Shown: positions 4,966-38,052 of the stretch, in pieces
How positions within the stretch are numbered: position 1 is the stretch's first letter
Layout: every line of letters starts with the position of its first letter
Origin: Methylococcales symbiont of Hymedesmia sp. n. MRB-2018
Lineage (GTDB): Bacteria > Pseudomonadota > Gammaproteobacteria > Methylococcales > Methylomonadaceae
Direction: 5' to 3'
NCBI GenBank assembly: GCA_003666385.1
Contig: QPIN01000056.1
Span: 1 to 64,000, forward strand
Length of the DNA: 64,000 bases
The notes under the pieces: generated by a model
What the model was told of the DNA's origin: nothing
Database searches by the model: none
What the model saw: only the letters and a program-made list of their open reading frames with translations
Made by a program: the position numbers and the translations under genes

Positions 4966-7794
4966 GTGGATAAAATTAGTATTCGAGGTGCCAGAACCCA
5001 TAACCTTAAAAATATAGACCTCGACTTACCCAGAGATTCACTCATTGTAATTACTGGTCTTTCTGGCTCAGGCAAATCTTCATTAGCTTTTGATACCATT
5101 TATGCAGAAGGTCAACGACGTTATGTAGAGTCACTCTCTGCCTATGCCAGACAATTTTTATCAATGATGGAAAAGCCCGATGTGGATCATATTGAAGGAC
5201 TTTCTCCCGCTATTTCTATTGAACAAAAATCAACCTCGCATAACCCACGTTCCACAGTCGCTACTATTACAGAAATTTATGATTATTTAAGACTGTTATA
5301 TGCCCGAGCTGGTATTCCACATTGCCCCGAACATAATATTTCTTTACAAGCGCAAACTGTTAGCCAAATGGTAGATCAAGTACTTGCACAAGAAGAGGGC
5401 GAACGCTGGATGTTATTGGCACCTGTTGTAAATCAACGAAAAGGCGAGCATATTCAACTGCTGGAAACCTTGTTGGCAGAAGGTTTTATTCGTGCTCGAA
5501 TCGATGGCGAAATATACGAATTGGACGAACCACCGACTCTCGATTTAAAAAAGAAACATTCTATAGATGTCATTATTGATCGCTTTAAGATACGTGATGA
5601 TATTCGACTGCGTTTATCAGAATCTTTTGAAACCGCCTTAAGAATTGCTGATGGCATTGCCATTGCCGCAACTATGGACGGCAAGAACCAGCTGTTATTT
5701 TCTGAGCGTTATGCCTGCTCACAATGTGGTTATAGTATTGCTGAGCTGGAGCCTCGTATTTTTTCTTTTAACAATCCCAAGGGAGCCTGTCCTGGATGTG
5801 ATGGCTTAGGTACAAAACAAAGTTTTGACCCAGATTTAGTCGTTCATAATGCAGATATTAGCCTTTCTGGCGGTGCCATTAGAGGCTGGGATCGACGTAA
5901 TGCCTATTATTACCAAATCATCCGCTCCCTAGCAGACCATTATGATTTTGATACCGAAACACCTTTTTCAAAAATCCCTAAAAACATTCAAGCGGTTATT
6001 CTTTATGGTAGTGGCAGGGAAAAAATAGATTTCCAATTCGCATCATCTTCTGCAAAAAAGCAAACCAGAACACATCCCTTTGAAGGCATTATTGCCAATA
6101 TGGAAAGACGCTACCATGAAACAGAATCGCAAATGGTACGTGATGAATTAGCAAAATATTTATCCCGAAAAGTCTGTAAACAATGCAATGGTTCTCGCCT
6201 GAATACAGCGGCACGCCATGTCTTCATTAATCAGAAACCCTTGCATGAAATTACTCGTTTACCCATCAAACAAACACTGGAATTTTTTAACCAGCTACAT
6301 TTACCCGGCCATCGGGGCGAAATTGCTGAAAAAATCAATAAAGAAATCCAGCAACGCTTAGAGTTTTTAGTGAATGTTGGGCTGGATTATCTAACCCTAG
6401 ACAGAAATGCTGATACTTTATCTGGTGGAGAAGCGCAACGTATTCGACTAGCAAGTCAAATAGGTGCGGGCTTAGTCGGAGTCATGTATGTATTAGATGA
6501 ACCTTCAATCGGCCTGCATCAACGTGATAATCAACGCTTACTCAGCACCCTTTTTCGCTTACGCGATTTAGGTAATACCGTGATTGTGGTTGAACACGAT
6601 GAAGATGCAATTTTATCAGCTCAACATATAATTGATATTGGTCCAGGTGCAGGTATTCATGGTGGCAAAATCGTCGCTAAAGGAACCGCTGAAGAAATTA
6701 AAAATAACCCAGCATCATTAACTGGACAATATTTATCTGGAAAACAAAAAATTGAAATTCCAAGTTCATTAACTGCATTAAATAAAAAAAAACTAATCAC
6801 TATTCATAATGCACGAGGCAATAATTTACAAAATGTAACCGTCTCTTTTCCCATTGGACTGTTAACCTGTGTCACTGGTGTTTCTGGCTCTGGAAAATCT
6901 ACCTTAATCAATGACACCTTGTATCGAAATGTTGCACGTATTATTAACAAAGCCAGTTGTATACCTGCACCTTGTGATGAAATTAGTGGTTTAAATCATA
7001 TTGATAAAGTAGTCGATATTGATCAAAGTCCTATCGGTCGAACACCTCGCTCTAATCCTGCCACTTATACCGGAATTTTTACCCCGGTTCGTGAACTGTT
7101 TGCTGCAACGGCTGAAGCCAGATCAAGAGGTTACACCCCTGGGCGCTTTAGCTTTAATGTTAAAGGCGGTCGCTGTGAATCCTGTAAAGGAGATGGCGTG
7201 ATAAAAGTAGAAATGCACTTTTTACCTGATATTTTTGTCGCCTGTGATATCTGTCAAGGTAAACGCTATAACAGAGAAACATTAGATATTCGTTATAAGG
7301 GCAAAACCATTAACGAAATTCTAGAAATGACGGTTGAAGATGGCGCTAAATTCTTTAGTCCTGTGCCTGTATTAGCCAAAAAACTACATACTCTAATTGA
7401 TGTAGGACTCAGCTATATTACCTTAGGGCAAAATGCAGTAACCTTATCCGGTGGTGAAGCGCAGCGGGTTAAACTGGCAAAAGAATTATCAAAACGCGAT
7501 ACAGGAAAAACCTTATATATCTTAGATGAACCAACAACAGGATTGCATTTTCACGATATAAAACAATTACTTTCAGTACTGCATACCCTTCGTGACCACG
7601 GTAACACCATCATCATTATTGAACACAATCTTGATGTCATTAAAACCGCAGACTGGGTGATTGATATGGGACCAGAAGGCGGTGCAGAAGGAGGAATGCT
7701 AGTTGCAGAAGGAACACCTGCTGAAGTATCTATAGTTGAGGACTCTTATACTGGACATTATTTAAAGCGATTTTTTGACGTTATCAAAAATTAA
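4966..7794 (+). CDS. uvrA: Excinuclease ABC subunit A
   Basis: Full-length; two Walker A motifs ([28 protein letters not shown]), zinc fingers and ABC signatures ([12 protein letters not shown]). Confidence 0.97.
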
Positions 7795-7846: not shown

Positions 7847-10800
7847 ATGCACACAAAATTTTTTACTAATACTAAAGAAAATACTTTATTTGAGAAATTA
7901 TCGGGGGTTTTTAAACACAATTTGTCCATCAATAATTTTGATGTTTTAGTGGGTTATTTTCGTTCCTCTGGCTATTTTAAACTGCGTCCATTACTAGAAA
8001 ATGTTGATAATATCCGCATTTTGGTTGGCATTGATGTTGATAAAATCACCAGCAATATGCAACAAAAAGGCTTGGCATTATTTCAGGGCGATGTTAAGCA
8101 AACCACTCAACAATGGGATAAAAAATTTATCGAAGATATACAACAATCGAAATATGATAAAGAAACCGAGCAGGGTATTTTACAATTTATTGAGGATGTT
8201 AAAAGACAAAAAATCCAGCTAAAAGCCCATCCTAGCCGTATTATTCACGCCAAAATTTATATTTTCCGCCCCGATAATTTTAACCAGCACAATGCCGGCA
8301 ATGTAATCACTGGCTCATCTAATCTTAGTGAGGCGGGTTTAGGCACTAAAAAAACCCCTAATTATGAATTTAATGTGCTGCTAAACGATTATGAGGATAT
8401 TCAATTTGCCACCGATGAGTTTGAGAAACTTTGGTCTGAGGGGGTGGAAATATTGCCCGAACAAGTGGAGAAAAGCAAACAAGCCACTTATTTAAACGAC
8501 GACATAAGCCCTTATGAACTTTATCTAAAATGCCTGATTGAGTATTTTGCTGATGATATTGAGTTTGACCCAAATTCCATTCAAGATTTACCCGATGGGT
8601 TTAAGCGTTTATCCTACCAAATGGACGCGGTTAATGAGGGTTGGGGCATGCTCAAAAAGCATAATGGTTTTTTCTTGTCCGATGTGGTGGGCCTGGGTAA
8701 AACAATGATTGCCACTTTAATTGCCAGACAATTTTATTATCACAATAGTTATCCTGATCACCGTTCTAAAATTTTGCTGATTATTCCACCCGCCTTAAAA
8801 CAAAACTGGCAAGATACACTGCAAAAATTCAAACTTGATGATGCGGTAAAAATCATCACTAACGGCAGTTTGCATAAAATTAAAAACGCCAAAGATTTTG
8901 ATATGGTGATTATTGATGAGGCACATAAGTTTCGCAACGATACGGCTGAATCTTACGACCAATTACAAATTATTTGTAAAACGAAAACCTTAGATAATAA
9001 AGCCAAAAAAGTAATGCTGATTTCAGCTACGCCGCTGAATAATCGCCCCGATGATTTATACAATCAAATTTTATTATTTCAGGATGGCAATAACTCTACC
9101 CTTGATTTTTCGTTGGCAAGTTTTTTTAATAAAGCCAAAAGGCAATATAAAGAGATTTTAAAATTAGCCGATGCAAAAAAAGCTGCAATACAAACCAAAA
9201 TATTATATGAAGAAATTAGGCAGCAGGTGATTGATCCACTTATGGTGCGCAGGACTCGCACTGATTTATTAGATAATGTGCGTTATAAAAAAGACTTAAT
9301 TGAACATAATGTCGTTTTCCCAGAAACCACAGCACCAAAGCCTGTTTATTACCAATTAGATGCAGATTTAAATGCGTTATATGACGCAACTATTAAAAAA
9401 ATTCACAACCCAGAACAAAAGCAAACAGGGTTATTGCATACGCGATACCGAGCTTTGCATTACTTAAAACCAGAATTCAAGCAAAACTACACGAGGGCTG
9501 ATTTTATTGCTGATCGTTTGGTTGGTATTATGAAAACGCTACTGCTGAAACGAATGGATAGCAGTTTTTATGCTTTTAAACAAACCTTAAAGCGTTTTAT
9601 AAAATCATCTGAAACCATGCTCAAGATGATTAAAAACAATCAAATCATCATTGCTCCAAAAATCAATATCAGCGACTATATTCTCAACGCCAAAGAAGAG
9701 GAGTTAATGGAGTTATTGGCGGATGAAAGCCTAACTAATCCCAATATTATCATTTGCACAAAAGATGATTTTGAAGCAGGTTTTGTTGAGGGCGTTAAGC
9801 ATGATTATGAGATGTTGAAACAATTAAAATCCGACTGGGACAAAATAACTAAAGACCCAAAAATTGATGAGTTTTTAACCCAATTACCAAACTTTTTAGT
9901 AGCAGAAAACAACCCAGAACAGAAAATCATCATTTTCACCGAAAGCACTGATACCATGAATTATTTATCACAAAACATCGCAACTACCGATTTTAATGAT
10001 AAAACTTTAGTGGTTAATGCCAGCAACCGCAATCAACTAAAGCAAACCATCAGTGAGAATTTTGATGCCAATATCAACGCCCAAGACAAGAAAAATGCTT
10101 ATCAAATTATTCTAAGCACCGATGTTTTAGCAGAGGGCATAAACTTGCACCGTGCCAATACGGTAATCAATTATGACACCCCGTGGAACGCCACCAAACT
10201 CATGCAACGTATTGGGCGAGTCAATCGTATTGGGCAAGCGGCAAGCCATATTTTTGTGTATAACTTTTATCCCACCGCACAAATTAACGATGATATTGGG
10301 CTGGAAAAAAAGGCATTGATTAAACTGCAAGCTTTTCATAGTGCATTAGGCGAAGATTCACAAATTTATTCCACTGATGAGCAGATCGGTAGCTATGGTA
10401 TTTTTGATGAAAACATTCAAGCAGAAAAAAACCAAACCCTGCCTTTTTTAGAAGAAATAAGAGGCTATAGAAAACACAATCCAGAAAACTATAAACGCAT
10501 TAAAGACCTGCCCAGCAAAGTCAGAAATGCGGTTAAAAACGCCACCCATAAAGACGGCACTCTGGTTTTTGCTCGTACCGAGGACAAAGGTAGTAGCCGA
10601 TTTTATATGATGCAAGCAGACCGTAAAATTGATAATTACAGCTTTATCCAAACTGCCCAATTATTAAAATGCACTCCAGACACCAAAGCCGCACCACTGC
10701 ACCAACAACACTACCCACAAGTTTTATCCGCATTGGATAAGTTTCAAGGTGAAATCGAGCAAAATATCCTCGACCAAACTCAAAATAAATCGCTATCTCC

Positions 10801-11104
10801 GCAAGATAAAAAAGCCATTCATTTTTTAAAATCCATCACCAACCTACCTAATGCCAACCCCGATGAACGGGAAAAACTAAGCCAAGCAATTAAACAAACA
10901 GAAAATAAAGCCTTTCCAAACCTCACCAGAGACATTAATAAATTGGCAAAAAATATCAAAGGCATAAAGCCGATTGTGGTGTTAGAAAACGCCTTAAAAA
11001 TTATTGGAAAATACGATATTAACCAGCATATACAAGCCGACATCGCAGAGGAAAGTGCCCAAGACACTCAGCCAATTATTGTAATATCCCAATCTTATGT
11101 CTAA
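7847..11104 (+). CDS. SNF2-family helicase with N-terminal PLD-like nuclease domain
   Basis: N-terminal HAKIYIF...GSSNLSEAGL (HKD/PLD-like), DVVGLGKT Walker A, IIDEAHKFRN, ISATPLNN, QRIGRVNRIGQ. Confidence 0.85.
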   Translation: MHTKFFTNTKENTLFEKLSGVFKHNLSINNFDVLVGYFRSSGYFKLRPLLENVDNIRILVGIDVDKITSNMQQKGLALFQGDVKQTTQQWDKKFIEDIQQSKYDKETEQGILQFIEDVKRQKIQLKAHPSRIIHAKIYIFRPDNFNQHNAGNVITGSSNLSEAGLGTKKTPNYEFNVLLNDYEDIQFATDEFEKLWSEGVEILPEQVEKSKQATYLNDDISPYELYLKCLIEYFADDIEFDPNSIQDLPDGFKRLSYQMDAVNEGWGMLKKHNGFFLSDVVGLGKTMIATLIARQFYYHNSYPDHRSKILLIIPPALKQNWQDTLQKFKLDDAVKIITNGSLHKIKNAKDFDMVIIDEAHKFRNDTAESYDQLQIICKTKTLDNKAKKVMLISATPLNNRPDDLYNQILLFQDGNNSTLDFSLASFFNKAKRQYKEILKLADAKKAAIQTKILYEEIRQQVIDPLMVRRTRTDLLDNVRYKKDLIEHNVVFPETTAPKPVYYQLDADLNALYDATIKKIHNPEQKQTGLLHTRYRALHYLKPEFKQNYTRADFIADRLVGIMKTLLLKRMDSSFYAFKQTLKRFIKSSETMLKMIKNNQIIIAPKINISDYILNAKEEELMELLADESLTNPNIIICTKDDFEAGFVEGVKHDYEMLKQLKSDWDKITKDPKIDEFLTQLPNFLVAENNPEQKIIIFTESTDTMNYLSQNIATTDFNDKTLVVNASNRNQLKQTISENFDANINAQDKKNAYQIILSTDVLAEGINLHRANTVINYDTPWNATKLMQRIGRVNRIGQAASHIFVYNFYPTAQINDDIGLEKKALIKLQAFHSALGEDSQIYSTDEQIGSYGIFDENIQAEKNQTLPFLEEIRGYRKHNPENYKRIKDLPSKVRNAVKNATHKDGTLVFARTEDKGSSRFYMMQADRKIDNYSFIQTAQLLKCTPDTKAAPLHQQHYPQVLSALDKFQGEIEQNILDQTQNKSLSPQDKKAIHFLKSITNLPNANPDEREKLSQAIKQTENKAFPNLTRDINKLAKNIKGIKPIVVLENALKIIGKYDINQHIQADIAEESAQDTQPIIVISQSYV

Positions 11105-11149
11105 AAAATTAACCACCGAAAACCGGCTATCAATCTTTAAATATCGGCT

Positions 11150-11986
11150 ATGGGGATTAGAATTGTGAGTAAAAAAATTAAACTTTTTCAAAATCAAAAA
11201 GCTAGAACTTATTGGGATGAAAAAAATGAACTTTGGTATTTTTCCATTATTGATGTAATTGAGATATTGACAGAAAGCCCAAGACCTAGAAAATATTGGA
11301 ACGCGCTAAAAGCCAAGCTTATAAATGAAGGCAGCCAACTGTCCCATGATTTGGGACAGTTGAAAATGCGAGCCACAGACGGAAAAATGCGATTAACTGA
11401 TGTGGCAAATACTAAGCAATTATTACGCCTAATTCAGTCTATCCCCTCAAAAAAAGCTGAACCCTTTAAACTCTGGCTCGCCAAAGTTGGCAACGAGCGA
11501 ATCCAAGAAATTAGCGACCCTGAACAATCGCTAAACCGTGCCAGAGAAAACTGGCAAAAAGCAGGCAGAAGCAAAAAATGGATTGAAAAACGCATGAGTG
11601 GGCAAGAAACCCGCAATAAACTCACCGATTATTGGCAAGAAAACGAGGTCAAAGCAGGCAAAGAATTTGCCATTTTAAGCAACATAATCCATTCAGAATG
11701 GAGCGGGCTATCTGTTGCTGACCACAAAGCCCTTAAAAATTTAGACAGCCGAAACTTACGCGATAATATGAGTGAAGCCGAGCTACTTTTTACTGCCCTA
11801 GCCGAGCTATCCACCCGCCAAATTGCCGAAACTGACGAAGCAAAAGGGCTGGAACAAAACAAAAAATCCGCCAAACAAGGCGGCACTATCGCCAAAAATG
11901 CCAAAGTTGAATTAGAAAACAAAACCCATAAAAAGATTGTTGATAGTAGTAATTTTTTAAAGCCAATAAAATTGATAAAAAAATAA
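11150..11986 (+). CDS. BRO-N / DinD-like protein
   Basis: YWDEKNELWYFSIIDVIEILTESPRPRKYWNALKAKLINEGSQLS and later ETRNKLTDYWQENEVKAGKEFAILSNIIHSEWSGLS are typical of the BRO-N/DinD family. Confidence 0.75.
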   Translation: MGIRIVSKKIKLFQNQKARTYWDEKNELWYFSIIDVIEILTESPRPRKYWNALKAKLINEGSQLSHDLGQLKMRATDGKMRLTDVANTKQLLRLIQSIPSKKAEPFKLWLAKVGNERIQEISDPEQSLNRARENWQKAGRSKKWIEKRMSGQETRNKLTDYWQENEVKAGKEFAILSNIIHSEWSGLSVADHKALKNLDSRNLRDNMSEAELLFTALAELSTRQIAETDEAKGLEQNKKSAKQGGTIAKNAKVELENKTHKKIVDSSNFLKPIKLIKK

Positions 11987-12126
11987 TGCAACTATTAGAC
12001 AAACCTTACAAGCGAACAGATTATCTTGAATTTTTAAATGATACGTTTAGTTTTTCTAAAACCTTAACGGCTATTTCAATCGACAGTCAAGCGATTAAGA
12101 GTTTTGAACAATTAGGTTTTATTACC
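11986..12126 (+). pseudogene. 5' remnant of a type IIG (Eco57I-like) restriction-modification gene
   Basis: MQLLDKPYKRTDYLEFLNDTFSFSKTLTAISIDSQAIKSFEQLGFITT parallels [47 protein letters not shown] at 21745. Confidence 0.75.
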
Positions 12127-12271
12127 ACCACAGGTCTAGGCATACATCCCGACTTCGTAGAAGTCGCCGCATTTGCCTATTGCCCACCAAACCATGCAAA
12201 ATAAACCCGCAAACATCCCTACGGTAACAGGTGCTAAGGGTGGGCGAATTTTAGGTGCTATCTACCAATAA
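12127..12271 (+). pseudogene. anmK: 3' fragment of anmK (anhydro-N-acetylmuramic acid kinase), frameshifted
   Basis: Frame-corrected translation GLGIHPDFVEVAAFAY/(LA)HQTMQNKPANIPTVTGAKGGRILGAIYQ* matches the AnmK C-terminus (EALAFAWLA...GNLPSVTGA...VLGAI). Confidence 0.7.
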
Positions 12272-12276
12272 GGTAT

Positions 12277-13170
12277 ATGAATACAAATCAAAACAATTAT
12301 ACAATAGGCAGTTTGTTTGCTGGTGTAGGTGGTATATGTCATGCTTTCAAAGCGGTGTCTTGCGAGGTGTTATGGGCAAATGAAATAGACTCTAATGCTT
12401 GCAAAACTTATAAATTAAATAATAAAAACACTCATTTATTTGAGTGCGATATAAAAGATCTGCATCATAGAGAATTACCAAGCATAGACATTCTAACTGC
12501 CGGCTTCCCTTGTCAGTCGTTTTCACACGCTGGACATAGCAAAGGGTTTGATGATGAAAGGGGAAGGTTGTTTTTTGAAGTGCCAAAATTGCTCGCAAAA
12601 TTACAGCCAAAGGCGTATTTATTAGAAAATGTTCGCGCCCTCGCCACGCACGACAAAGGCAACAGTTTAGACATTGTTAAAAATGCAATATTGCGGTTGG
12701 GGTATTCATTTATTCCCTTTGTTTTAAACGCCGCAAAATACACAAGTATACCGCAGGGCAGAGAACGTATTTATATGCTTGGATTTAGCAACGAGGCAGA
12801 TTTTTACTTTGATGCTCCAACAAAAATAAACGATAAAAAGATTACTGCCTGCCCCTTGTCAAACGCATTTTACATCCCCCAAGAAACCGAAAACACCCCA
12901 AAACCAATTAAAGATTTTTTGCAAAACAATGTGGATGAAAGTTATTTTTACACAGACAAAAATAACCACATCCACAAAAAATCCGCCAAAAATGCCAAGC
13001 GGAATGACACTGTATATCAATATCGCCGCTACTATGTGCGGGATAACAAATCCAATGTTTGCCCCACGCTCACTGCTAATATGGCAGGTGGCGGACATAA
13101 TGTCCCCATTATTTTAGACGGCGGGCGACCACGGAAGCTTACGCCTAAAGAGTGTTTTAATTTGCAATGA
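12277..13170 (+). pseudogene. C5-cytosine DNA methyltransferase, truncated before the C-terminal motif X
   Basis: Motifs GSLFAGVGGI, GFPCQSFSHAG, LLENVRAL, QGRERIYMLG. Ends abruptly at LTPKECFNLQ* where the family continues GFP...GN. Confidence 0.8.
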
Positions 13171-13949
13171 ATACCCAAACACAACACAGTAGCAAACATC
13201 AAAATTATGAAATTCTTAATTTAATAGGCTATGGTTTAGCAAAATTTAACGATGATTTTGTTAAAGAATTTGGTTTTAATAGCAAGACTGCATTTTATAA
13301 TTTTTGTGTTACTAATAAAATTGCCGATACAATTGGCACGGTCAAAAATCGTATGGATTTGTTTGATCCTTTTTTCCCTAATAATGACCGTAAAGGCTGG
13401 TGGCAAAAGGGGGAAGTTTATATCCATAGGAAGACTCTAATTGATGGTCTGTTTGGTGCTGAAAATGTAGTGGAATATGCCGATATTGTTAAACTGTATA
13501 TGCAAGATTTTTTTAATATTAAAGACCTTGATTATCAAACAAAACCTATCATTAAAACCAAGTTTAAAAAGATGCAAGAGACTGGTTTAGAGGCGGAATT
13601 ATTTTTTAAGTATAACTACAATTCTATAGATATTTTTAAAAATGGATTATTAGAGGATGCAAGGCTTTATGGTGATGGCTACGACTTCCAAATTACCAAT
13701 TAACAACGCTCTTATTTAGCAGAAGTAAAAGGCATTAGAGAAAAAACTGGTAAATTTCGCCTCACCAAAAACGAATATCAAAAAGCACAAGACTATCAAA
13801 ATGATTATATTATTGCCGTTGTGCTTAACCTAAATGCCAGCCCTAAAATTTTAACCTTTACAGACCCTGTTAATTGCTTGAGATTTGAGGAGAAATTCTT
13901 TAAACCCAAGATGGTAAGTGAATATTATTTAATGGATATAGTGAAATAA
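13167..13949 (+). pseudogene. Putative restriction endonuclease (DUF3883-like) interrupted by an in-frame TAA
   Basis: ORF 13167-13703 stops at ...DGYDFQITN*, then the same frame continues QRSYLAEVKGIREKTGKFRLTKNEYQKAQDYQNDYIIAVV to 13949. D...AEVKG resembles a PD-(D/E)XK core. Confidence 0.65.
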
Positions 13950-13951
13950 TT

Positions 13952-14695
13952 ATGGCTATAATCTTGCCAAAAGGAACAACAAACTATCAGGAAATGCATA
14001 ATGGAGTTTCTATAATTGGTATTTCTTATTCAGACAATCAAGTTAAGCAATACTCTGAACTTGTTAAAAATGCTTGTTTTGATAGTGATGGGCAGGACGA
14101 GCTGAATGCATATATAAGCTCTATTGGTGAAACTGGTTTTACATCAACTCAATCAATCCTCACAAACATTAAAGAATGGCAATTAGGAGAGGCGCTTGCA
14201 GAAGTCCATCTTGAACAATGTTTTTCTTGTCATTTCCCATGGTCTAATCGTAGAGATTTAAAAAACCCTAAATCAAGTTTATCAGGGGCTGATTTAGTTG
14301 GTTATCATAATAGTGAATTTGCTTTTGGTGAAGTAAAAACATCAGCAGAACAAAAATCACCTCCACAAGTAACCTCTAAAAGATATGATGGATTGAGTGC
14401 ACAGTTAAATAAATTATGTATCGATACAGATTTACGTCAGACAATTATTCAATATTTATTTTTTCGTCAAAAAGAAACAGTTAAATATCAAGAAGCACTG
14501 AGGACATATTTAAAAAACCAGCATAATTTTTATATATTTGGTGTCTTAGTGCGTAATACTCTGCCAAATGTAAACGATTGGAGTTATCTAAAAAATAACT
14601 TTACGGCACATAAGAAAAACAAATCTTATCTTGTTGCCTTGTATCTATCATTTGATAAATTAAGAGATTGTGTCACCAGTGGAGGTGAATCATGA
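13952..14695 (+). CDS. HamA-like (DUF1837-type) nuclease of a Hachiman/AbpAB-like system
   Basis: GADLVGYHNSEFAFGEVKTS nuclease-like motif. Overlaps the helicase gene by 4 nt (ATGA). Confidence 0.6.
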   Translation: MAIILPKGTTNYQEMHNGVSIIGISYSDNQVKQYSELVKNACFDSDGQDELNAYISSIGETGFTSTQSILTNIKEWQLGEALAEVHLEQCFSCHFPWSNRRDLKNPKSSLSGADLVGYHNSEFAFGEVKTSAEQKSPPQVTSKRYDGLSAQLNKLCIDTDLRQTIIQYLFFRQKETVKYQEALRTYLKNQHNFYIFGVLVRNTLPNVNDWSYLKNNFTAHKKNKSYLVALYLSFDKLRDCVTSGGES

Positions 14696-17600
14696 TTACT
14701 AATAAAATTTTACAAAAGATAGATGATCATTGGGCGGTAAAAGCTGTGGGTGATGATGATTTTCGCCGATCTATTTTACAAAGCGTAAAAGCAAAATTAG
14801 TGAGTAACGCTGTTGGCGAACAGCTTACCTTAGATCCAACCACCCATATTCTTGATGATGCGGATTTAAAGCGTCTAGCAATGGCATACGAAATGGCTGC
14901 AATTGAAGGGATGCATGATTTTATTAACCATTCAAATGATGATCTGTATGATCAATTTTTAGCAGGCTCTTTTAGGGCTTTTGAAATTAATAGAGTTTTG
15001 AATGATCCAGATGATGATTTTGCATTTATTTTTTATGTGTTACACCTGTCATCATTGGCTTGTTGTGGCGATTGTTGGACTGATTTAAAACACATCTATG
15101 ATGATAAATCAGAAAAAATTGAATCTATTTTATTAAGGCAGGAAACAGAGTGGGATAAGCAAATATTGTTATGTTTATTTACTTGTTGGGTAAGTTTATT
15201 TAGAAAAAACTCTTGGAATGATTTAAGTCAAATATCAAATTCAATCAATCAATTAAGAAAAGAACAAGCACAGTATGAGCAAGAGTTTTTAAAATCAAAT
15301 TCCAATAAAGAAAACCAAACTAAAGCAATAAGGTTGATGGCTCTTTATCATTGGGCAAAGGCATCTGAATTATTATCTCTATATATGCTGCAAGGAGACC
15401 CTGCTGATATTAAATCACAATTAGATAAACACTTTAATTTAGCAATTAAAATTTCAGCTGATGGCGGCGATGCTCAATTAGAAGTTTTATTGCGTTGGCT
15501 GCACGCTTGTGCAGAACAGATGATTAACGGCTCAATTTGGTGGGTTGCACGCACTATCAATTCAAAAGCAACTAAATTTATTGAAAAACTATCAAAACAG
15601 GCAAAACCACTTTTAGAGTTGCTTCCACCTCAAAGAGCAGCGCTCAAGGAAATGAATTTACTAGACCCTGCTAAAACAGCAGTGGTTGTTGATATGCCGA
15701 CATCTGGTGGTAAAACTTTATTAGCTCAATTTAAAATATTACAAGCCATTAATAATTTTGGCGAAACCAAAGGCTGGGTTGCCTACATCGCACCTACTAA
15801 AGCATTAGTGTCTCAAATTACTCGGCAATTGCGTCAAGATTTTTCACCTATTGGCATTAAAGTAGAAAAATTAAGTGGTGCTATTGAGGTTGATGCTTTA
15901 GAAGAGGATATGCTCAATGATGAGGCTAGTTTTGATATTTTAGTTTCAACGCCCGAAAAAATGCAGTTAGTATTGCGTAACCATAAAATAAAAAGACCTT
16001 TATCATTATTAGTAATGGATGAAGCTCACAATATAGAGGACGAAAGTAGAGGGCTTAGAATTGAATTATTATTGGCAACAGTTAAACAACATTATCAAGC
16101 AAAAGCTAATTTTTTGTTATTAATGCCCTATGTTGAGAATGCACAAACACTATCACGCTGGTTAGCCCATGATCGTAATGCGGGTTTATCTATTAGTTTA
16201 AGCACCAGCCCATGGAAACCAAATGAACGCATTATAGGATTAGTCACAAAGCAAAAAGGTAAAAAACGCGGTGATTGGTCAATAAAATACAAAACACTAA
16301 TCACCAGCCCTAAAACCATTCATTTAAAGGGCAAGCATAAAATTGGTGTCACAAAGCCTATTAATGATGTTACTTACAGCAGTGCTAATTTGTCTAAATT
16401 AGTAGCAGCTTGTGCTAAAAATTTTGCTAATCGTGGTACCAGCATTGTTGTTGTAAAAACTAAGCCAAACACTTGGAGTGTGGCAAAAACTATATTTGAA
16501 AATATTGATCCGTTTGAAAATATTTCAACAAATATTAAATTAGTGCAAAATTATCTTAAAGACGAAGTTGGAGTCGAATTTGAATTAATAAAAATGTTAG
16601 ACAAAGGTATTGGTATTCATAATTCAGGTCTTTCAGATGAAATAAAATCTCTAATGGAGTGGCTTACTGAAGAAGGTGAATTGAGAGTTTTATGTGCTAC
16701 CACTACAATTGCACAAGGTATTAATTTTCCAGTTTCTTCCATATTTTTACAAAGCATTGAATACCCTTATGGTAAAAAAATGTCATATAGAGAATTTTGG
16801 AATTTAGTAGGTAGAGCAGGCAGGATTGGGCAGGATAATATAGGCGTAGTTGGTATTGCTTGTGATTCAGACGAAAAAGAAAAAGAGCTAACTCACTTTG
16901 TTCAGCAAAGCACTGGAGATTTAATTTCTCGTTTAATTGGCATTCTTAAGGAGTTAGATAATCGTGGTGAATTAAATAATTTAGAAAGTATGATGTATGC
17001 TCCTCAATGGGAGGATTTTCGCTGTTATATTGCACATTTATTAAATGAGAAGAAAGAACTACAAGCAACCATAAATGAAATGGATCAAATGCTTACCAAT
17101 ACTTTTGGTTATAGCGAGCTAAAAAATACCAATCAAAATCATTCTGAGATATTACTTGAAGCTACTAAACAATACACACAAAGTATTGCAAAAAACATGG
17201 GTAGAGTTGCGCAAGCTGATATGACAGGATTTTCAGTAGAATCTGTTAAGAAAGCAGCACAAGAAATAGATCAATTAAAATATAAATTAACCACATCAGA
17301 CTGGATGCCACAAAGTTTGTTTAGCTCAACTGATAGTAAGTTACCTGATTTGTTTAGTGTTATGTTCAAAATAGAGCAATTAAACTTTTCTCATGACGAC
17401 ACACAAGGCAGAAAAAAATCTCGTATGGCTGATATAGCCAAAGCATGGATTGATGGTAAAACAATCAATGAAATTGCAATTAGTTTTTTTGAAGGCAATG
17501 ATTCTAAAAAAATATCTGAAGTTTATAATGCAATTTATAGCAAATTAGCTAATGGTGGTACATGGGGTTTATCTGCTTTAGCTTCAATATCTGGGCTGGA

Positions 17601-17895
17601 TTTTGAAGCTATGTCAGACGAACAAAAAAGACAATTGAATTTAATGCCAGCAATGCTTTATCACGGCGTTAATAATGAAGAATCAGTATTGATGCGCATG
17701 AATTCAGTTCCAAGAAGTATCGCAGATTCAATCGGTAATAATTTTAAACAGCGAACAGAAAAAAGAAATATTGCAACAGCAAGAAAATACTTAAAAAGTT
17801 TACGCAACGAAGATTGGGCTATATATAAAAGTAATTTTTTAACTGGCTCAGAATATAAAAAAATATGGCAAATATTGTCTGGTGAATTAGATTAA
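14692..17895 (+). CDS. HamB-like DEAD/DEAH helicase
   Basis: DMPTSGGKTLLAQF, LVMDEAHNIEDESRG, ATTTIAQGINFPVSS, NLVGRAGRIGQ. Coupled to the upstream DUF1837-like gene. Confidence 0.7.
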   Translation: MITNKILQKIDDHWAVKAVGDDDFRRSILQSVKAKLVSNAVGEQLTLDPTTHILDDADLKRLAMAYEMAAIEGMHDFINHSNDDLYDQFLAGSFRAFEINRVLNDPDDDFAFIFYVLHLSSLACCGDCWTDLKHIYDDKSEKIESILLRQETEWDKQILLCLFTCWVSLFRKNSWNDLSQISNSINQLRKEQAQYEQEFLKSNSNKENQTKAIRLMALYHWAKASELLSLYMLQGDPADIKSQLDKHFNLAIKISADGGDAQLEVLLRWLHACAEQMINGSIWWVARTINSKATKFIEKLSKQAKPLLELLPPQRAALKEMNLLDPAKTAVVVDMPTSGGKTLLAQFKILQAINNFGETKGWVAYIAPTKALVSQITRQLRQDFSPIGIKVEKLSGAIEVDALEEDMLNDEASFDILVSTPEKMQLVLRNHKIKRPLSLLVMDEAHNIEDESRGLRIELLLATVKQHYQAKANFLLLMPYVENAQTLSRWLAHDRNAGLSISLSTSPWKPNERIIGLVTKQKGKKRGDWSIKYKTLITSPKTIHLKGKHKIGVTKPINDVTYSSANLSKLVAACAKNFANRGTSIVVVKTKPNTWSVAKTIFENIDPFENISTNIKLVQNYLKDEVGVEFELIKMLDKGIGIHNSGLSDEIKSLMEWLTEEGELRVLCATTTIAQGINFPVSSIFLQSIEYPYGKKMSYREFWNLVGRAGRIGQDNIGVVGIACDSDEKEKELTHFVQQSTGDLISRLIGILKELDNRGELNNLESMMYAPQWEDFRCYIAHLLNEKKELQATINEMDQMLTNTFGYSELKNTNQNHSEILLEATKQYTQSIAKNMGRVAQADMTGFSVESVKKAAQEIDQLKYKLTTSDWMPQSLFSSTDSKLPDLFSVMFKIEQLNFSHDDTQGRKKSRMADIAKAWIDGKTINEIAISFFEGNDSKKISEVYNAIYSKLANGGTWGLSALASISGLDFEAMSDEQKRQLNLMPAMLYHGVNNEESVLMRMNSVPRSIADSIGNNFKQRTEKRNIATARKYLKSLRNEDWAIYKSNFLTGSEYKKIWQILSGELD

Positions 17896-17902
17896 ATAAA
17901 AA

Positions 17903-19008
17903 ATGAAAACATTAAATACCAATTTACATAAGGCTAATAAAGCCAAGAAAGATGAGTTTTATACTCAATTAGCGGATATTGAAAAAGAAGTAAAGCATTA
18001 TAAAAAACACTTTAAAAATAAAGTGGTGCTGTGTAATTGTGATGATCCAAGAGTGAGTAATTTTTTTCATTATTTTTCTTACAATTTTGAAAGTTAGAGC
18101 TTAAAAAGTTGATTGCTACTTGCTATAAAAATCAACAGATGGATTTATTCAGCCAACACGATTGTGAAAAAGCCATTTATTTAGAATACGAAGGCGATAA
18201 AAATAACAACAAAATCCCTGATACTGAGGAAATTGGTATTAAGCATTTTAAAGGCGATGGTGATTTTAGAAGCGATGAATGTATAAAATTATTAAAACAA
18301 GCCGATATTGTGCTTACTAATCCGCCGTTTTCTCTGTTTAGAGAGTATGTTACACAGTTGGTAGAATACGATAAAAAGTTTTTGATTATTGGCAATATGA
18401 ATGCCATAACCTATAAAGAAACTTTTAAATTGATTAAGGAAAATAAATTATGGTTAGGTGCCAGTATTCATAGTGGCGATAGAGAGTTTGGCGTTCCCAA
18501 AGATTATCCATTACATGCAGCTAGTAGTAGAATTGATGAAAATGGCAATAAATTTATCAGAGTTAAAGGGGTGCGTTGGTTTACTAATTTAGACTACAAA
18601 GAAAGACACGAAGACCTGATTTTGTATAAAACCTACAACCAAGCAGACTACCCAAAATACGATAATTACGATGCGATTAATGTGGATAAAACCAAAGAAA
18701 TACCTGTGGACTATAAAGGTGCTATGGGTGTGCCGATTACCTTTATGGATAAATATAATCCTGAGCAGTTTGAGATTTTAGGGATAACTGCTGGGCGAGA
18801 TGAGTTTGAGTGTCGTCCTACAAAACGCTATAAAAATGCTATCCAAGTCAATCAAAACGGCTCCACAGCAAATGGGAGTAAGGCAAATACGCGGTCAACG
18901 CTACTCTATTCCAGAAAACCCAACGGGACTTATTATACTGCTGATAATGTAAATGGATATTTATCTATACTATACGCAAGAATTTTAATCAAAAACAAAA
19001 AACTATAA
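17903..19008 (+). pseudogene. EcoRI-family adenine-specific DNA methyltransferase, split by a single-nucleotide frameshift
   Basis: ORF 17903-18097 (NKAKKDEFYTQLADIEKEVKHYKKHFKNKVVLCNCDDPRVSNFFHYF) and ORF 18109-19008 (ADIVLTNPPFSLFREYV). Adding one A after GAA near 18091 joins the frames as NFEKLELKKLIATCYKNQ. Confidence 0.8.
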
Positions 19009-19237: not shown

Positions 19238-19238
19238 T

Positions 19239-19804: not shown

Positions 19805-20889
19805 TGGAGATAAAACTCAAAGAAATAACAGTGGCTGATTTAGTCAAAGATTACGCCGATGATACTGCCAGCGGTCAGGTTGTGGGCTATGGCGGCAAAT
19901 TAGATATTCGCCCTAAATATCAACGCGAATTTATTTACAAAGATGAGCAAAGAAGTGCCGTGATTGACACTTTAACTAAAGATTTTCCCTTAAATGTAAT
20001 GTATTGGGCAGTGCGTGATGACGGTGGTTTTGAAGTGATTGATGGGCAACAACGCACTATTTCGGTATGCCAGTATGTTAATGGCGATTTTTCTTATAAA
20101 GAGTTGTATTTTAATAATCTGCAAGATGATAAGCAAGCACAAATCCTTAACTATAAACTCTCAATTTATCAGTGTAGCGGCAGCGATAGTGAAAAATTAG
20201 AGTGGTTTAAAACCATCAATATCGCAGGTGAAAAACTTACCAACCAAGAATTAAGAAACGCCGTTTATTCTGGTGCGTGGGTGTCTGATGCGAAACGATA
20301 TTTTAGTAGAAATGGCTGTGCCGCTCACAATATTGCCAATAAATATTTAACAGGTTCATCAATCAGGCAAGATTATTTAGAAACTGCGATTAAATGGATT
20401 TCTGATAATAAAATTGAAGATTATATGGCAACAAATCAGCACAAACCCAAGGCAGATGAATTATGGCTGTATTTTCAAAATGTAATAAATTGGGTTGAGA
20501 TAGTTTTTGCAAAATATCGCAAAGAAATGAAAGGCGTTGATTTTGGTTTTTTATACAATCAGTTTAAAGATGATAAATTTGATTCAGATAAATTAGAGGC
20601 AGAAATAGCAAAATTGATGCAAGATGACGATGTTACTAAAAAATCAGGTATTTATCCATTTGCTCTTACAGGAAAAGAAAAATACCTCAACATCCGTGCA
20701 TTTACCGACAATCAAAAACGCGAGACATACGAAAAGCAAAAAGGCATTTGCAAAAAATGTAAAAAAGAATTCACCCTAGTAGAAATGGAAGCCGACCACA
20801 TAAAACCTTGGCACGAAGGCGGAAAAACCATTACTAAAAATTGCCAGATGTTATGTAAAGACGATAATCGCAGGAAGTCTGGGAAGTGA
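19804..20889 (+). CDS. DUF262 (GmrSD-like) protein with C-terminal HNH endonuclease
   Basis: KYQREFIY, VIDGQQRTIS (DGQQR) and a C-terminal CKKCKKEF...EADHIKPWHEGGKT...NCQMLCKDDN HNH. Confidence 0.85.
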   Translation: MEIKLKEITVADLVKDYADDTASGQVVGYGGKLDIRPKYQREFIYKDEQRSAVIDTLTKDFPLNVMYWAVRDDGGFEVIDGQQRTISVCQYVNGDFSYKELYFNNLQDDKQAQILNYKLSIYQCSGSDSEKLEWFKTINIAGEKLTNQELRNAVYSGAWVSDAKRYFSRNGCAAHNIANKYLTGSSIRQDYLETAIKWISDNKIEDYMATNQHKPKADELWLYFQNVINWVEIVFAKYRKEMKGVDFGFLYNQFKDDKFDSDKLEAEIAKLMQDDDVTKKSGIYPFALTGKEKYLNIRAFTDNQKRETYEKQKGICKKCKKEFTLVEMEADHIKPWHEGGKTITKNCQMLCKDDNRRKSGK

Positions 20890-20897
20890 AAAATATT
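20869..20897 (+). repeat. 29-bp direct repeat, copy 1
   Basis: CGCAGGAAGTCTGGGAAGTGAAAAATATT, identical to 25179-25207. Confidence 0.9.
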
Positions 20898-20899
20898 GA

Positions 20900-21094
20900 A
20901 TTAATGGGGACAGGCTACTTTTTAGGGTGTAATACCAATCACCAAAATAAATCACCCATCTAGCATTCATATTTGCACCAACTATAAGCACTATCTGAGC
21001 GATTTATTTTGGTGATTGGTATAATCCAGGTAAAAAAGGATAGCATCCACATTTGCATGGATTACACCCTAAAAAGTAGCCTGTCCCCATTAAT
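20900..21094. mobile_element. MITE-like element with nested perfect inverted repeats
   Basis: Outer 34-bp perfect IR ATTAATGGGGACAGGCTACTTTTTAGGGTGTAAT (20900-20933 / 21061-21094). Inner 22-bp perfect IR ATACCAATCACCAAAATAAATC (20932-20953 / 21001-21022). Confidence 0.85.
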
Positions 21095-21111
21095 ACACAA
21101 AGAGGTAAAAA

Positions 21112-21345
21112 ATGTTAAGCACTGCCCATAGAACCAATGTTGTCTTAGATGAAAACATCGTCCAAGAAGCCCTAAAACTCAGCCAAATAAAAACTAAACG
21201 TGCCTTGATAGACACCGCCCTAAAAGAGTTTATTGCCAATCATAAAAAGCCAAATATTATGGATTTATTGGGCATGGGCAGTATTGATAAGGATTATGAT
21301 TACAAAGCATTACGCGGTAGAGACCACCTGCCAAAGTTAAAATAA
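21112..21345 (+). CDS. vapB: VapB-family antitoxin
   Basis: 77 aa; RTNVVLDENIVQEALKLSQIKTKRALIDTALKEFI, immediately upstream of a PIN toxin. Confidence 0.8.
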   Translation: MLSTAHRTNVVLDENIVQEALKLSQIKTKRALIDTALKEFIANHKKPNIMDLLGMGSIDKDYDYKALRGRDHLPKLK

Positions 21346-21347
21346 TT

Positions 21348-21743
21348 GTGTATTTAATAGATTCATCGGTTTGGATAGATGGCATCAACGGCAAAGCCAA
21401 GACAGTTAAATTTCTCAGACAACTGTCGCCAGAGGCATTAGGGATAAATTTACTCATTTATACTGAGGTATTGCAAGGGGCAAGCACTCAGAAATTGCTT
21501 AATGTGCAACAATCCTATTTATCGGCACAGCCTTTCTACGGCTTTCAAAACGATAAAATCAGCCATCAACAAGCGGCTAATATTTATAGAAAATGTCGTC
21601 AAAATGGCGTTACACCACGTTCCACTATAGATTGCCTCATCGCCCAATGTGCCATAGAAAATGATTTAATCTTATTACACAATGATAAAGATTTTGTAAA
21701 AATCGCCAGTGTAATGCCCAATTTACAACAAACAGCCATTTAA
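21348..21743 (+). CDS. vapC: VapC-family PIN-domain ribonuclease toxin
   Basis: [12 protein letters not shown], conserved acidic PIN residues, [23 protein letters not shown]. Confidence 0.85.
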
Positions 21744-21744
21744 T

Positions 21745-23067
21745 ATGGATTTTAAGCAAGCCTACAACCAACCCAATTATCTTAATTTTTTAAGCGAAAA
21801 GTTTAATTTTTCTAAAACCTTAACGCCTATTACAATCAACAATACAGAGGTTAAAACCTTTAAGTCATTAGGATATATAACAACGGCTGATGACAAACAA
21901 TTACCCGTTTTTGAAATCCACATCAAACCCAATACCAAATTATCACGCAATCGGGCTGGCTTGCGCAATCTAGTTGCCAAACAAATCCCACCAGAAGATG
22001 GCGCTTTAGCAGTTTATGTGGATGGTGAAAACAAACAGTGGCGTTTTAGTTTTATTGCCATTGAATATAAATTCACCGAAGATGGTTTAGAAAAACAGCA
22101 AACAGCCAGTAAACGCTTTACCTATCTTTTAGGTGAAAATGCCCAAATTAGAACTGCCAAACAGCGTTTTGAAACCCTTAATAAAACCTCAACATTAGCA
22201 GACTTAAAAGCCGCTTTTGCGGTTGAGCAACTTAACAAGGATTTTTATAAACAATTATACGATTGGTATAACCACGCCAAAGAAAAAGTGATTTTCCCCA
22301 ATGACGAAAACGCCAAAAGCCATATTGAGGATAGTTTAATCCGCTTTTTAACACGGATTTTATTCGTCTGGTTTCTCAAAGAAAAACACCTAATTAACAA
22401 AGATTTATTTGATTTAACCAAACTCAAAAACTTGATTAAATATGAAGAAGACAGCAGTTTCTACAAAGCTATTTTACAAAATCTATTTTTTGCCACGCTA
22501 AATCGTCAAATAAAAGACCGTAGTTTTCGCCGCACCACCAATGGCAAGCCCAATAACACCAATTATTTAGCCGCCAATATTTATCGTTATCAAAATTATT
22601 TTCAAAACAACGATGAGCAAGAAATTATGGATTTATTCAAGCAAACCCCGTTTTTAAACGGCGGCTTATTTGAATGTTTAGACCGCGAGGCAACAGATGA
22701 AGAAAAATCGGCCTACGACCAAGACAAAACCGTCCGCAAAATTGGCAGTGCCATTCGCATTGATGGCCTTTCTGATAGAAAAAATAATGCATTAGATTTT
22801 GACAATGCCTTATTTTTTAACACTAACGAAACAGGCTTATGTGATTTATTCAAGCAATACCAATTTACCGTAGAAGACGCACTCACCGATGCAGGATTGC
22901 AAGCAAGCCACGCCGAAGTAACCATGGAACCCGCCACCCGCGTCGAACTCAACCTCGTCAACGCCGAAAAATTTATGAAACTAATTGAACGCCTAGAAGA
23001 CCTAGACGACACCCAAGAGGTTTATCACAATGCTGATATTTCTGATGAAGTGATGGCTCAGTTATAA
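21745..23067 (+). CDS. Chimeric ORF: N-terminal region of a type IIG (Eco57I-like) R-M protein joined to the C-terminus of YebC
   Basis: Residues 1 to about 375 resemble Eco57I-type N-terminal regions. Last 64 aa [63 protein letters not shown] match the YebC/PmpR C-terminus. Confidence 0.75.
22876..23067 (+). pseudogene. yebC: yebC 3' fragment in the chimeric ORF
   Basis: Translated match to the YebC C-terminal domain ending ISDEVMAQL*; local base composition is higher in GC than the preceding segment. Confidence 0.75.
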
Positions 23068-23076: not shown

Positions 23077-25143
23077 ATGCCAAAAATAAAAGACATTCCA
23101 AAAGTTGAACGCCCAAGAGAGCGATTATTGCAAAAAGGCGCTAACGCATTATCCAAAACCGACCTTTTAGCGATTTTGCTTGGAAGTGGCATTAAAGGTG
23201 TAAATGTAGAAGAGTTATCTACTCAGATTATTAATAAATTTGGCAAAAATTTTCTTAATGTCAGCATTAAAGATTTAACATCTGTTAAAGGTATCGGCGA
23301 AGTTAAGGCGCTGCAAATACATTCCGCTATTGAACTGGTTAAGCGTTTTGATGAGCCAAAAAATACCAATCAATTAACCTTTATGGATTTTTGTGCTGGG
23401 GTTGGTGGTGGTCGTCTGGCTTTAGATAACCTAGGTATGCAGTGTGTTGGATTTTCTGAAATTGATGAAAATGCTGAAAAAACTTATCGTCTATTATTCA
23501 ATGATAAAGGCAAAAATTACGGTGATTTAACCAAAATAAATGCAGATAAATTGCCTGATTTTGATGTGATGATTGCAGGTTTTCCTTGTCAGGCTTTTTC
23601 TGTTTTAGGCAAGAGGCAAGGCATTTATGACAAGGTGCAAAAGAAAGGGGAAATCATTTTTCACTTGATAGAATTTTTAATTGCAAAGTCTGTTAAATTT
23701 TTTATTTTTGAAAATGTAAAGGGTTTGATAGGTCACGATAACGGCTTAACTTTAAAAATAATTTTAGATGAATTAGATAAAGCTGGATATTTTGTTAAAT
23801 GGCAAATGTTAAATAGCATTGATTATGGCACGCCACAAATGAGAGAGCGTATTTATTTTGTAGGAGTAAAAAAGGAACTGTTAGGAGATAATAACTTTGA
23901 TTTTGATTTTCCTCAGAAGTTGACTAAAAAATCCAATGTAACTGATTTTTTAATTGATAATGTAGAACTAGATTTTAACGATAAGCAGCAAACATACAAA
24001 ACCTTTCAAAGATACTTAGAAAACAAATACAATAAAGATAAATTTAGCGTTGCAGAATTATTAAAAGAGGAAAATTTGGTTATAGATACTCGGCAATCAG
24101 ATTTAAGGAAATATTACAACAGAGTGCCAACTTTAAGGCTAGGAAGACACGGTATTTTGTATGTTAGAAATGGTAAATTTAGAAAATTATCTGGTTATGA
24201 ATCTTTTTTATTACAGGGGTTTGGTAAAGAAAAAGCCCAAAAAGCTAGAGACAATATTTTAGATATACACTTACTAAAACAAGCTGGCAATGCAATGACT
24301 GTTAGCACGGTTCAGGCGATTGCCGCTAAGGTGTTGAAGTTTATCAATAATTTAGAGATGGTCAATATGAACAAAAAACAAAAAATAGGTTCAAAGACAG
24401 CGAAAGACGGGTTTAAAAATGAATTGGGTGTTGTTGACGCTTTTAATTGCTGGAAAACTAATGATTCTGCTCAAAAATGGTTAATGGCTATGGATTACCA
24501 TTTAGAAGATATTGAGCATGTTGAAGCCCATCAAATTAGCGGATATAAAGCAGATGTACAAGTAGAAATTAAAATATCAATCAAATTAAAACATTTAACA
24601 GATGTGCAAAACTTACAAGTTAAATTGGTAACTAATGATGAAGATAAAAAATTATCAGGCAAAAATCAAATTGATAAAAGATGGGTGGAAACCTATCAGG
24701 AATTGTGGAATATTCCTAAAAATGTGGTAAAAATTTTAAAGCACTTTACAGGCGAATTACCGCCGCATATAGATAACGCAAGAGACCCTAGGCGGATGTT
24801 TATTAATGAATTATCGCAGCAGGATAGAGTAGCATTATTTGATTTTTTAAAAGCTAATCAGTTACTAATAGTTAGTGATATATTAAAAGGTAGAGGTAAA
24901 CTTGCTGCTGAATGGATGTTGGTAATTGTAAGAAATAGAGACTATAAAATCACTCACTGGGCATTAAAATCCATCAATGTTGTTTGTAATTTTTTTGGCA
25001 ATGGTGAGATAGAAATATCACCACAAGGAAGCATTAAAATTGGTAAGATTTTAATGCAAAGAAAAGGCGGAGATGGTGGCAGGCCTAGTGCAAATATGTT
25101 GCAATTTAACATAGACCCAACAAAATTAATAGACATAATGTAA
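23077..25143 (+). CDS. Three-domain fusion: RadC/UPF0758 N-terminal HhH domain + C5-cytosine methyltransferase + HinP1I-like type II restriction endonuclease
   Basis: RPRERLLQKGANALSKTDLLAILLGSGIKG...VKGIGEVKALQI (RadC N-term); FMDFCAGVGGGRLAL, GFPCQAFSVLGK, ENVKGL, QMRERIYFVG, QAGNAMTVSTVQAIA (C5 MTase); GSKTAKDGFKNE...HFTGELPPH...RRMF...LKGRGKLAAEW...QRKGGDGGRPSANMLQFNIDPT (as recalled for R.HinP1I). Confidence 0.85.
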   Translation: MPKIKDIPKVERPRERLLQKGANALSKTDLLAILLGSGIKGVNVEELSTQIINKFGKNFLNVSIKDLTSVKGIGEVKALQIHSAIELVKRFDEPKNTNQLTFMDFCAGVGGGRLALDNLGMQCVGFSEIDENAEKTYRLLFNDKGKNYGDLTKINADKLPDFDVMIAGFPCQAFSVLGKRQGIYDKVQKKGEIIFHLIEFLIAKSVKFFIFENVKGLIGHDNGLTLKIILDELDKAGYFVKWQMLNSIDYGTPQMRERIYFVGVKKELLGDNNFDFDFPQKLTKKSNVTDFLIDNVELDFNDKQQTYKTFQRYLENKYNKDKFSVAELLKEENLVIDTRQSDLRKYYNRVPTLRLGRHGILYVRNGKFRKLSGYESFLLQGFGKEKAQKARDNILDIHLLKQAGNAMTVSTVQAIAAKVLKFINNLEMVNMNKKQKIGSKTAKDGFKNELGVVDAFNCWKTNDSAQKWLMAMDYHLEDIEHVEAHQISGYKADVQVEIKISIKLKHLTDVQNLQVKLVTNDEDKKLSGKNQIDKRWVETYQELWNIPKNVVKILKHFTGELPPHIDNARDPRRMFINELSQQDRVALFDFLKANQLLIVSDILKGRGKLAAEWMLVIVRNRDYKITHWALKSINVVCNFFGNGEIEISPQGSIKIGKILMQRKGGDGGRPSANMLQFNIDPTKLIDIM

Positions 25144-25178
25144 ATCTTTTATGGGGATAGAGCAAAGGTTGTAATAAC

Positions 25179-25207
25179 CGCAGGAAGTCTGGGAAGTGAA
25201 AAATATT
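25179..25207 (+). repeat. 29-bp direct repeat, copy 2
   Basis: Identical to 20869-20897. Confidence 0.9.
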
Positions 25208-25253
25208 AAAGGTAAAAATGAATAGCGAAGAATACGGTTGGCATATTGGCGAC

Positions 25254-25334
25254 GAAACCAAAATTGACTAGATGGTCTATAAACTCTACAACCTAAGCAC
25301 CGCTGAAATCAAAATCATTGAGGCTGAAAAATGA
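25254..25334 (+). pseudogene. Type IIG C-terminal tail remnant A
   Basis: ETKID*MVYKLYNLSTAEIKIIEAEK*; the stop TGA overlaps the ATG of the following TPR gene. Confidence 0.7.
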
Positions 25335-26638: not shown

Positions 26639-26658
26639 ACTGCCATCAACACCACGTA

Positions 26659-26742
26659 TTAAAAACCAAAATTGATACAATAGTCTATAAAATATACAAG
26701 CTAAGCACTACTGAAATCAAAATTATTGAGGGTGAAAAATGA
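26659..26742 (+). pseudogene. Type IIG C-terminal tail remnant B
   Basis: LKTKIDTIVYKIYKLSTTEIKIIEGEK*; overlaps the ATG of a TPR gene remnant. Confidence 0.7.
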
Positions 26743-30719: not shown

Positions 30720-30851
30720 TCAGTTAAAATCCTCACTGCCAAAAAAGACGGCAAAGACACCACCACTTTAGAAGCCCAAATAGATAAAATAGTGTATAAA
30801 CTCTACAACCTAAGCACCGCTAAAATAAAAATTATTGAGGCTGAAAAATGA
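30720..30851 (+). pseudogene. Type IIG C-terminal tail remnant C
   Basis: KSVKILTAKKDGKDTTTLEAQIDKIVYKLYNLSTAKIKIIEAEK*; overlaps the ATG of the TPR gene at 30848. Confidence 0.75.
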
Positions 30852-32461: not shown

Positions 32462-32484
32462 ACTGCCATCAACACCACGCATCA

Positions 32485-32559
32485 GAAACCAAAATTGATA
32501 CAGTAGTCTATAAAATCTACAGCACTACTGAAAGCAAAATTATTGAGGGTGAAAAATAA
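32485..32559 (+). pseudogene. Type IIG C-terminal tail remnant D
   Basis: ETKIDTVVYKIYSTTESKIIEGEK*. Confidence 0.65.
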
Positions 32560-37715: not shown

Positions 37716-37969
37716 GCTAATTTTCTCATCTAAATATCATCTGCCATTTTATGTTTCTGATGAATTGTACAAAAAAGGCAGGAGTTAAACAAAATATCAC
37801 AAGATTTTGACCTTAAATATTGTTTGACAATATTAAATTCAAGGTTTGTAAATGGTTCTTTAAGCAAAAAAGCCTTGGATAAAAAAAGAAAACTAGGACA
37901 ATATGCGGTCGTCTGGGACAGTGAAAAAGTGGTGCGCATTCTGTCAACTGATAAACCAAAGACACCCAC

Positions 37970-38052
37970 GCATTAGAAACCAAAATTGATACAATGGTGT
38001 AATCTAGCACCTCACCGAGGATGAAATCAGCATTATCGAAGGCAAAAAGTGA
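37970..38052 (+). pseudogene. Type IIG C-terminal tail remnant E (frameshifted), right edge of the island
   Basis: ALETKIDTMV* then, in another frame, HLTEDEISIIEGKK*. Confidence 0.65.

Follow-up and report, generated by a model that had tools for sequence, protein, structure and literature searches.

The region analysed here, a stretch of 64,000 nt referred to as the window, contains a genomic island that extends from uvrA to an rpsA-like core gene at 38720–40426, which forms its right border. Within this island, at 11986–12271, the start of an Eco57I-type (type IIG) restriction-modification (RM) gene is joined in frame to the 3′ end of anmK. Comparisons are made chiefly with f117, a family of small-genome gammaproteobacteria (83 genomes, mostly 0.7–2.8 Mb) that is probably Thioglobaceae. 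The left part of the island comprises the following features:

4966..7794, + strand: uvrA, own-lineage core gene and left island border (94% amino-acid identity to congener G001, 85–88% to others)
7847..11104, + strand: PLD-SNF2 helicase, first gene of a PLD-helicase/(BRO)/type IIG cassette (Pfam/PADLOC)
11150..11986, + strand: BRO-N protein (Pfam Bro-N, E 8e-10), its stop overlapping the type IIG start (TAATG)
11986..12130, + strand: type IIG 5′ remnant, first 48 codons (DNA and protein comparison)
12121..12136, + strand: junction 1, type IIG/anmK, where proxy parents share ATAACAACCA (10 bp)
12131..12271, + strand: 3′ end of a foreign anmK including the stop codon, with a 2-nt frameshift near 12179 (AnmK matches, Pfam)
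12277..13170, + strand: m5C DNA methyltransferase without its C-terminus (Pfam DNA_methylase, E 2e-62, covering 2–287 of 324)
13167..13949, + strand: companion gene, probably an endonuclease, with an in-frame stop at 13701 (71% DNA identity to f117 L201 over 13015–13811; translation)
13952..17895, + strand: candidate defence pair PDC-M23A/B (PADLOC, 1e-68 and 0; 71% DNA identity to f117 G588)

The type IIG part lies in a 72-aa ORF at 11986–12204, which translates as MQLLDKPYKRTDYLEFLNDTFSFSKTLTAISIDSQAIKSFEQLGFITTTGLGIHPDFVEVAAFAYCPPNHAK followed by a stop and begins in the overlap with the BRO-N gene. The initial annotation had noted, from the letters alone, that about the first 47 residues parallel the N-terminus of a longer ORF at 21745, and this is borne out: the first 44–48 residues align with residues 5–48 of that ORF (48% amino-acid identity, E 4.8e-8), and the two starts are 75% identical in DNA over 122 bp (E 2e-16). 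Alignment to an intact homolog, which the annotation had proposed as a check, places the N-terminal part on residues 1–50 of a 1170-aa f117 protein carrying Eco57I and TaqI_C domains. The homology ends at codon 48, with the methyltransferase and target-recognition domains missing, and no Pfam family was found in the 72-aa ORF. The segment 11525–12127, which runs across the BRO/type IIG start and up to junction 1, is contiguous in f117 L213 at 75.7% DNA identity.

After the 48 type IIG codons and a join located at about 12126–12136, the reading frame continues in an AnmK segment, GLGIHPDFVEVAAFAY, and a 2-nt frameshift near 12179 puts the rest of the AnmK C-terminus in another frame. The anmK tail comprises the last ~45 codons of the gene and ends in a TAA stop at 12271. 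The assignment to AnmK (anhydro-N-acetylmuramic acid kinase) after a frameshift, also proposed from the letters alone, is upheld by matches to 39 AnmK proteins (36–68% amino-acid identity, E down to 7e-17) and by a match of positions 337–366 of the Pfam AnmK model to 12179–12268 (E 0.0013). Over these ~45 residues, the match to AnmK C-termini reaches 75%; unlike a kinase, the window holds this C-terminal end only, split by the frameshift, and a complete kinase fold in one reading frame is absent. We conclude that 11986–12271 is a decayed pseudogene or boundary chimera and no working gene.

The methyltransferase starts 6 bp after the anmK stop, with AAGG between. Both its truncation point and the gene that follows recur in f117 L201, and the following gene (13167–13949) is probably its endonuclease partner; the PDC-M23 pair starts 2 bp past the final stop of that gene. 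The spacing behind the anmK stop, together with the in-frame fusion here and at the second remnant described below, could be read as a selected arrangement in which the chimeric ORF serves as a functional small protein or as a regulatory leader of the methyltransferase. We find this hardly credible, because a frameshift splits the anmK part, the methyltransferase is truncated at its C-terminus, a stop interrupts the following gene, and the chimera occurs in no other genome searched. The anmK end has no function of its own and is at most a translational lead-in for the methyltransferase.

A second remnant of the same kind lies ~10 kb downstream, among the following features:

21112..21743, + strand: VapB-PIN toxin-antitoxin pair, before the second type IIG remnant (Pfam; 72–74% DNA identity in f117 L206)
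21745..22877, + strand: second type IIG 5′ remnant, ~377 codons (PADLOC REase_MTase_IIG, E 1e-8)
22864..22877, + strand: junction 2, type IIG/yebC, where proxy parents share 10–11 of 14 bases
22864..23067, + strand: 3′ end of a foreign yebC (Pfam, amino-acid comparison)
23077..25143, + strand: RadC N-terminus, m5C methyltransferase and R.HinP1I in one ORF (Pfam)

The type IIG part of the second remnant is 73–74% identical in DNA to several f117 genomes, with matches that stop at 22877. The claim that the 21745 ORF ends in the C-terminus of YebC is confirmed by Pfam (E 8e-13) and NCBIfam (2e-15). Thus, as proposed, two type IIG 5′ remnants are each capped by the 3′ end of an unrelated core gene, a configuration that decay of a single gene does not explain. 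Like Eco57I-type (IIG) RM proteins, the first 48 and ~377 codons in the window match the N-terminus of the intact 1170-aa homolog; unlike them, both copies are remnants without methyltransferase and specificity regions. The ORF behind the yebC tail joins the RadC N-terminal domain, the m5C methyltransferase and R.HinP1I in 688 aa. R.HinP1I is rare, being found in 5 of 369 genomes of a class sample, and is a separate gene in the four others.

Both core-gene ends are foreign to the host lineage. The host has an intact anmK of its own elsewhere (C14:2889–3986), but alignment of the tail to it, as called for by the initial annotation, gives a DNA identity of only 62%, ruling out an own-genome origin. 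The best match to the tail is f117 G541 (36 of 48 residues), as compared with at most 32 of 48 in 39 other genomes and 26 of 48 in the own genome, and a tree of the short AnmK stretch places the tail beside f117, not inside it, with weak support (80/11). On these comparisons, the source of the anmK tail appears nearest to f117. For the YebC tail, identities of 82–86% to f117 yebC, 48% to the own yebC, and at most 66% to anything else in 369 genomes point clearly to f117 as the source. Since the own anmK (62% DNA) and own yebC (48% amino acids) are both so distant, local capture is excluded, and the core-gene ends arrived with foreign DNA.

The neighbouring pieces have similar relationships. 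A DNA search in f117 with window positions 11986–25143 returned homologs of the type IIG 5′ parts (73–74%), the yebC 3′ end (75–83%), the radC 5′ part (72–74%), the M/R.HinP1I part (75%), the methyltransferase end with the endonuclease (71%), and the PDC-M23 pair (71%). The PLD-SNF2 helicase is 73% identical in DNA to f117 L202 and L204, where it lies between erpA and type IIG. The f117 order is erpA, PLD-helicase, (BRO), type IIG, followed by a DUF488 pair where this is visible on the contig (L202, L204, L213, L265 and L266). In the window this frame is split: its start lies at 7847–12130 and its end, a type IIG 3′ end with a DUF488 pair, at 32479–34307, with other cassettes between. Most island pieces have f117 homologs and, as judged from homology, the island is built from f117-type pieces.

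The resemblance of island pieces to another family at 71–83% DNA identity, and the fact that the junction is known from one assembly only, raise the possibility that the assembly fused the host genome with a co-occurring genome of f117 type. Against this stand the PLD-helicase that also follows uvrA in congener G001 (89% DNA identity), the core rpsA-like gene at the right border, the decay of several island ORFs, and the ~10-bp microhomology at the junctions, which is shorter than assembly overlaps. The microhomology and the uvrA/PLD-helicase edge found in an independent congener make an artefact at junction 1 unlikely, and we regard the assembly chimera as a whole as very unlikely. The same edge, shared with G001 but without the helicase in five other congeners with an assembled uvrA, indicates that the island is older than the split between the own genome (G000) and G001. 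The closest congener has no match to the junction or to type IIG; a search for junction 1 in G001, whose contig breaks off within the PLD-helicase at window position 10507, gave no match.

Inspection of the junctions for microhomology, as the initial annotation had advised, was informative at both. With parents represented by proxies ~25% diverged from the true parents, junction 1 has 10 bp common to both parents (chance 6e-5 at a random position pair). At junction 2, matches to yebC begin at 22864, before those to type IIG stop at 22877, and in the resulting 14-bp overlap the proxies share 10–11 bases (chance 6e-5 to 7e-4). Both joins are in frame. Joining of incoming DNA by illegitimate recombination at microhomology is a known process, to which the two unrelated-gene junctions, at 10–14 bp of similarity, correspond.

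The f117 genomes show where such core-gene ends could acquire RM genes. Across 30 f117 anmK loci, pyrC usually comes next after anmK, and an extra gene lies directly behind anmK in 7 of the 30: AlbA_2-type in L216, L217, L219 and L237, and Fic-type in L215, L218 and L229 (AlbA_2 in L216 and Fic in L218 identified by Pfam, the other five loci called as similar genes). Behind f117 yebC lies an N6_N4 methyltransferase (L201) or a BRO gene (L210), and behind lpd a radC′ fused to a methyltransferase (L196, L200) or another RM gene (L208). The 3′ flanks of f117 anmK and yebC are thus insertion-prone. Because accessory or RM genes lie directly behind f117 anmK, yebC and lpd, it is plausible that some donor had an RM pair behind anmK, though none was observed: in no genome examined does an RM gene directly follow anmK, that place being taken by AlbA_2- or Fic-type genes. 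Likewise, no related methyltransferase adjoins anmK in the anmK loci of 39 named genomes, and no anmK or yebC end lies beside related m5C methyltransferases in the loci fetched from 32 gammaproteobacterial genomes.

These observations suggest that the chimeras probably arose by co-transfer, in which RM cassettes from f117-like donors, each carrying a donor gene 3′ end, were spliced by microhomology into resident type IIG genes. The anmK chimera would then mark the left edge of an RM cassette gained horizontally. Specifically, an f117-related donor would have had the methyltransferase/endonuclease pair directly behind anmK. The anmK 3′ end and the pair would have entered, by transformation or another route, and been joined via the ~10-bp microhomology, in frame, at codon 48 of a resident type IIG gene that was part of a PLD-helicase/BRO/IIG cassette, the join removing the rest of that gene. 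A yebC 3′ end and the radC::M.R.HinP1I cassette would have entered the second type IIG gene, at codon ~377, in the same way. The site of splicing would have been the island between uvrA and rpsA, and the anmK end would have become frameshifted after joining.

Further gene 3′ ends cap units elsewhere in the island:

20864..20900, + strand: 3′ end of a GmrSD/HNH endonuclease gene, first copy of a 37-bp direct repeat
25174..25210, + strand: HNH-gene 3′ end, second copy (95%)
25254..25322, + strand: type IIG 3′ end, copy 1, before the TPR gene at 25331
26656..26730, + strand: type IIG 3′ end, copy 2, before a truncated TPR gene and IteA/IteS
30729..30839, + strand: type IIG 3′ end, copy 3, before the TPR gene at 30848
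32479..32547, + strand: type IIG 3′ end, copy 4, before the DUF488 pair
37958..38046, + strand: type IIG 3′ end, copy 5, near the right border

The five type IIG copies comprise the last 12–37 codons of the gene, and the TPR genes start in an ATGA overlap with copies 1 and 3. The DUF488 pair is the native neighbour of type IIG in f117 L204, L265 and L266, and where it directly follows type IIG, in L204 and L266, the arrangement is consistent with an unoccupied TPR-unit site, though across families. The two TPR genes (25331–26638 and 30848–32461) contain near-identical internal repeats of 102 bp, are ~80–90% alike, and flank the IteA/IteS-like pair; the third, truncated TPR copy begins at 26741.

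The pattern described as recurrent in the initial annotation holds within the window, where the two core-gene ends are accompanied by the HNH 3′ end and five type IIG 3′ ends, but not in relatives: no further type IIG-5′/core-gene-3′ junction was seen in the six f117 genomes with this type IIG, 60 relatives and viral contigs gave no exact match to the junction, and neither viral contigs nor plasmids yielded a relative of the 72-aa ORF. What recurs in relatives is cassettes directly behind core genes. The recurring pattern is real and fits known RM-gene mobility.

Duplicated ends of this kind invite another account of the core-gene tails. RM genes are documented to insert with target duplications that are long and vary in length (PMC3031569, PMC1643837; Nobusato et al. 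2000 and Furuta et al. 2010, both as cited in PMC3031569). By analogy, a cassette may have duplicated a gene 3′ end on insertion, and the anmK and yebC ends may be old duplications carried along on later moves. As in those cases, RM cassettes in the window abut gene ends, and duplicated ends of 37–111 bp flank several units: the type IIG 3′ ends flank the TPR, IteA/IteS and DUF488 units, the 37-bp HNH-gene 3′ ends flank 20901–25173, and in f117 G399 a complete type IIG gene is followed by a DUF488 pair and then by a 99-bp copy of the gene's 3′ end (83%). For anmK and yebC, by contrast, direct duplication around the unit is not seen: no second anmK or yebC end flanks the cassettes within the window, no duplication borders the genes inserted at f117 anmK and yebC loci, and no f117 genome has a second anmK-end match. 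Moreover, the foreign anmK end, unlike the documented cases, is one-sided, ectopic, and joined by microhomology to another RM gene. We therefore consider this account unlikely for the chimera, and prefer a co-transferred flank joined by microhomology.

Under co-transfer of a flank, each tail records the last site of a defence cassette, so that donor locus and lineage can be read from the recipient genome. Here they point to RM cassettes having passed between two bacterial families, plausibly ones with a common habitat or animal host, and to an island that grew as cassettes were spliced into each other. A broader and quite improbable proposal is that defence cassettes of these bacteria move without a recombinase as a host-gene 3′ end plus cassette, the 3′ end serving both as recombination anchor and, through stop/start overlap, as translational lead-in by which the cassette is turned on where it lands next; if so, gene 3′ ends would be a general docking device for island growth. 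No integrase domain was found among the island ORFs scanned, no tRNA within the window, and no Rfam match in 7–40 kb.

The RM gene load of the own genome (2.2 Mb) is unusually high, with 13 m5C-methyltransferase matches (~10 genes) on contigs C1, C2, C11, C20, C43, C62 and C63; in the regions fetched around most of the other m5C methyltransferase clusters, there are no type IIG, anmK or yebC tails. Several smaller features were also noted in the island. A tandem duplication at 18986–19452 (89%, 252 bp apart) comprises the 3′ end of an EcoRI-type methylase and the start of an ORF6N-like gene. A MITE-like element of ~200 bp lies between the HNH gene and VapB (20890–21110) and has nearly perfect inverted ends of 37 bp (20897–20933 and 21061–21097). 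Another gene end, a remnant with the motif FFFKQWGTWG at 34340–34560, resembles the 3′ end of a phage gp37/gp68-type gene.
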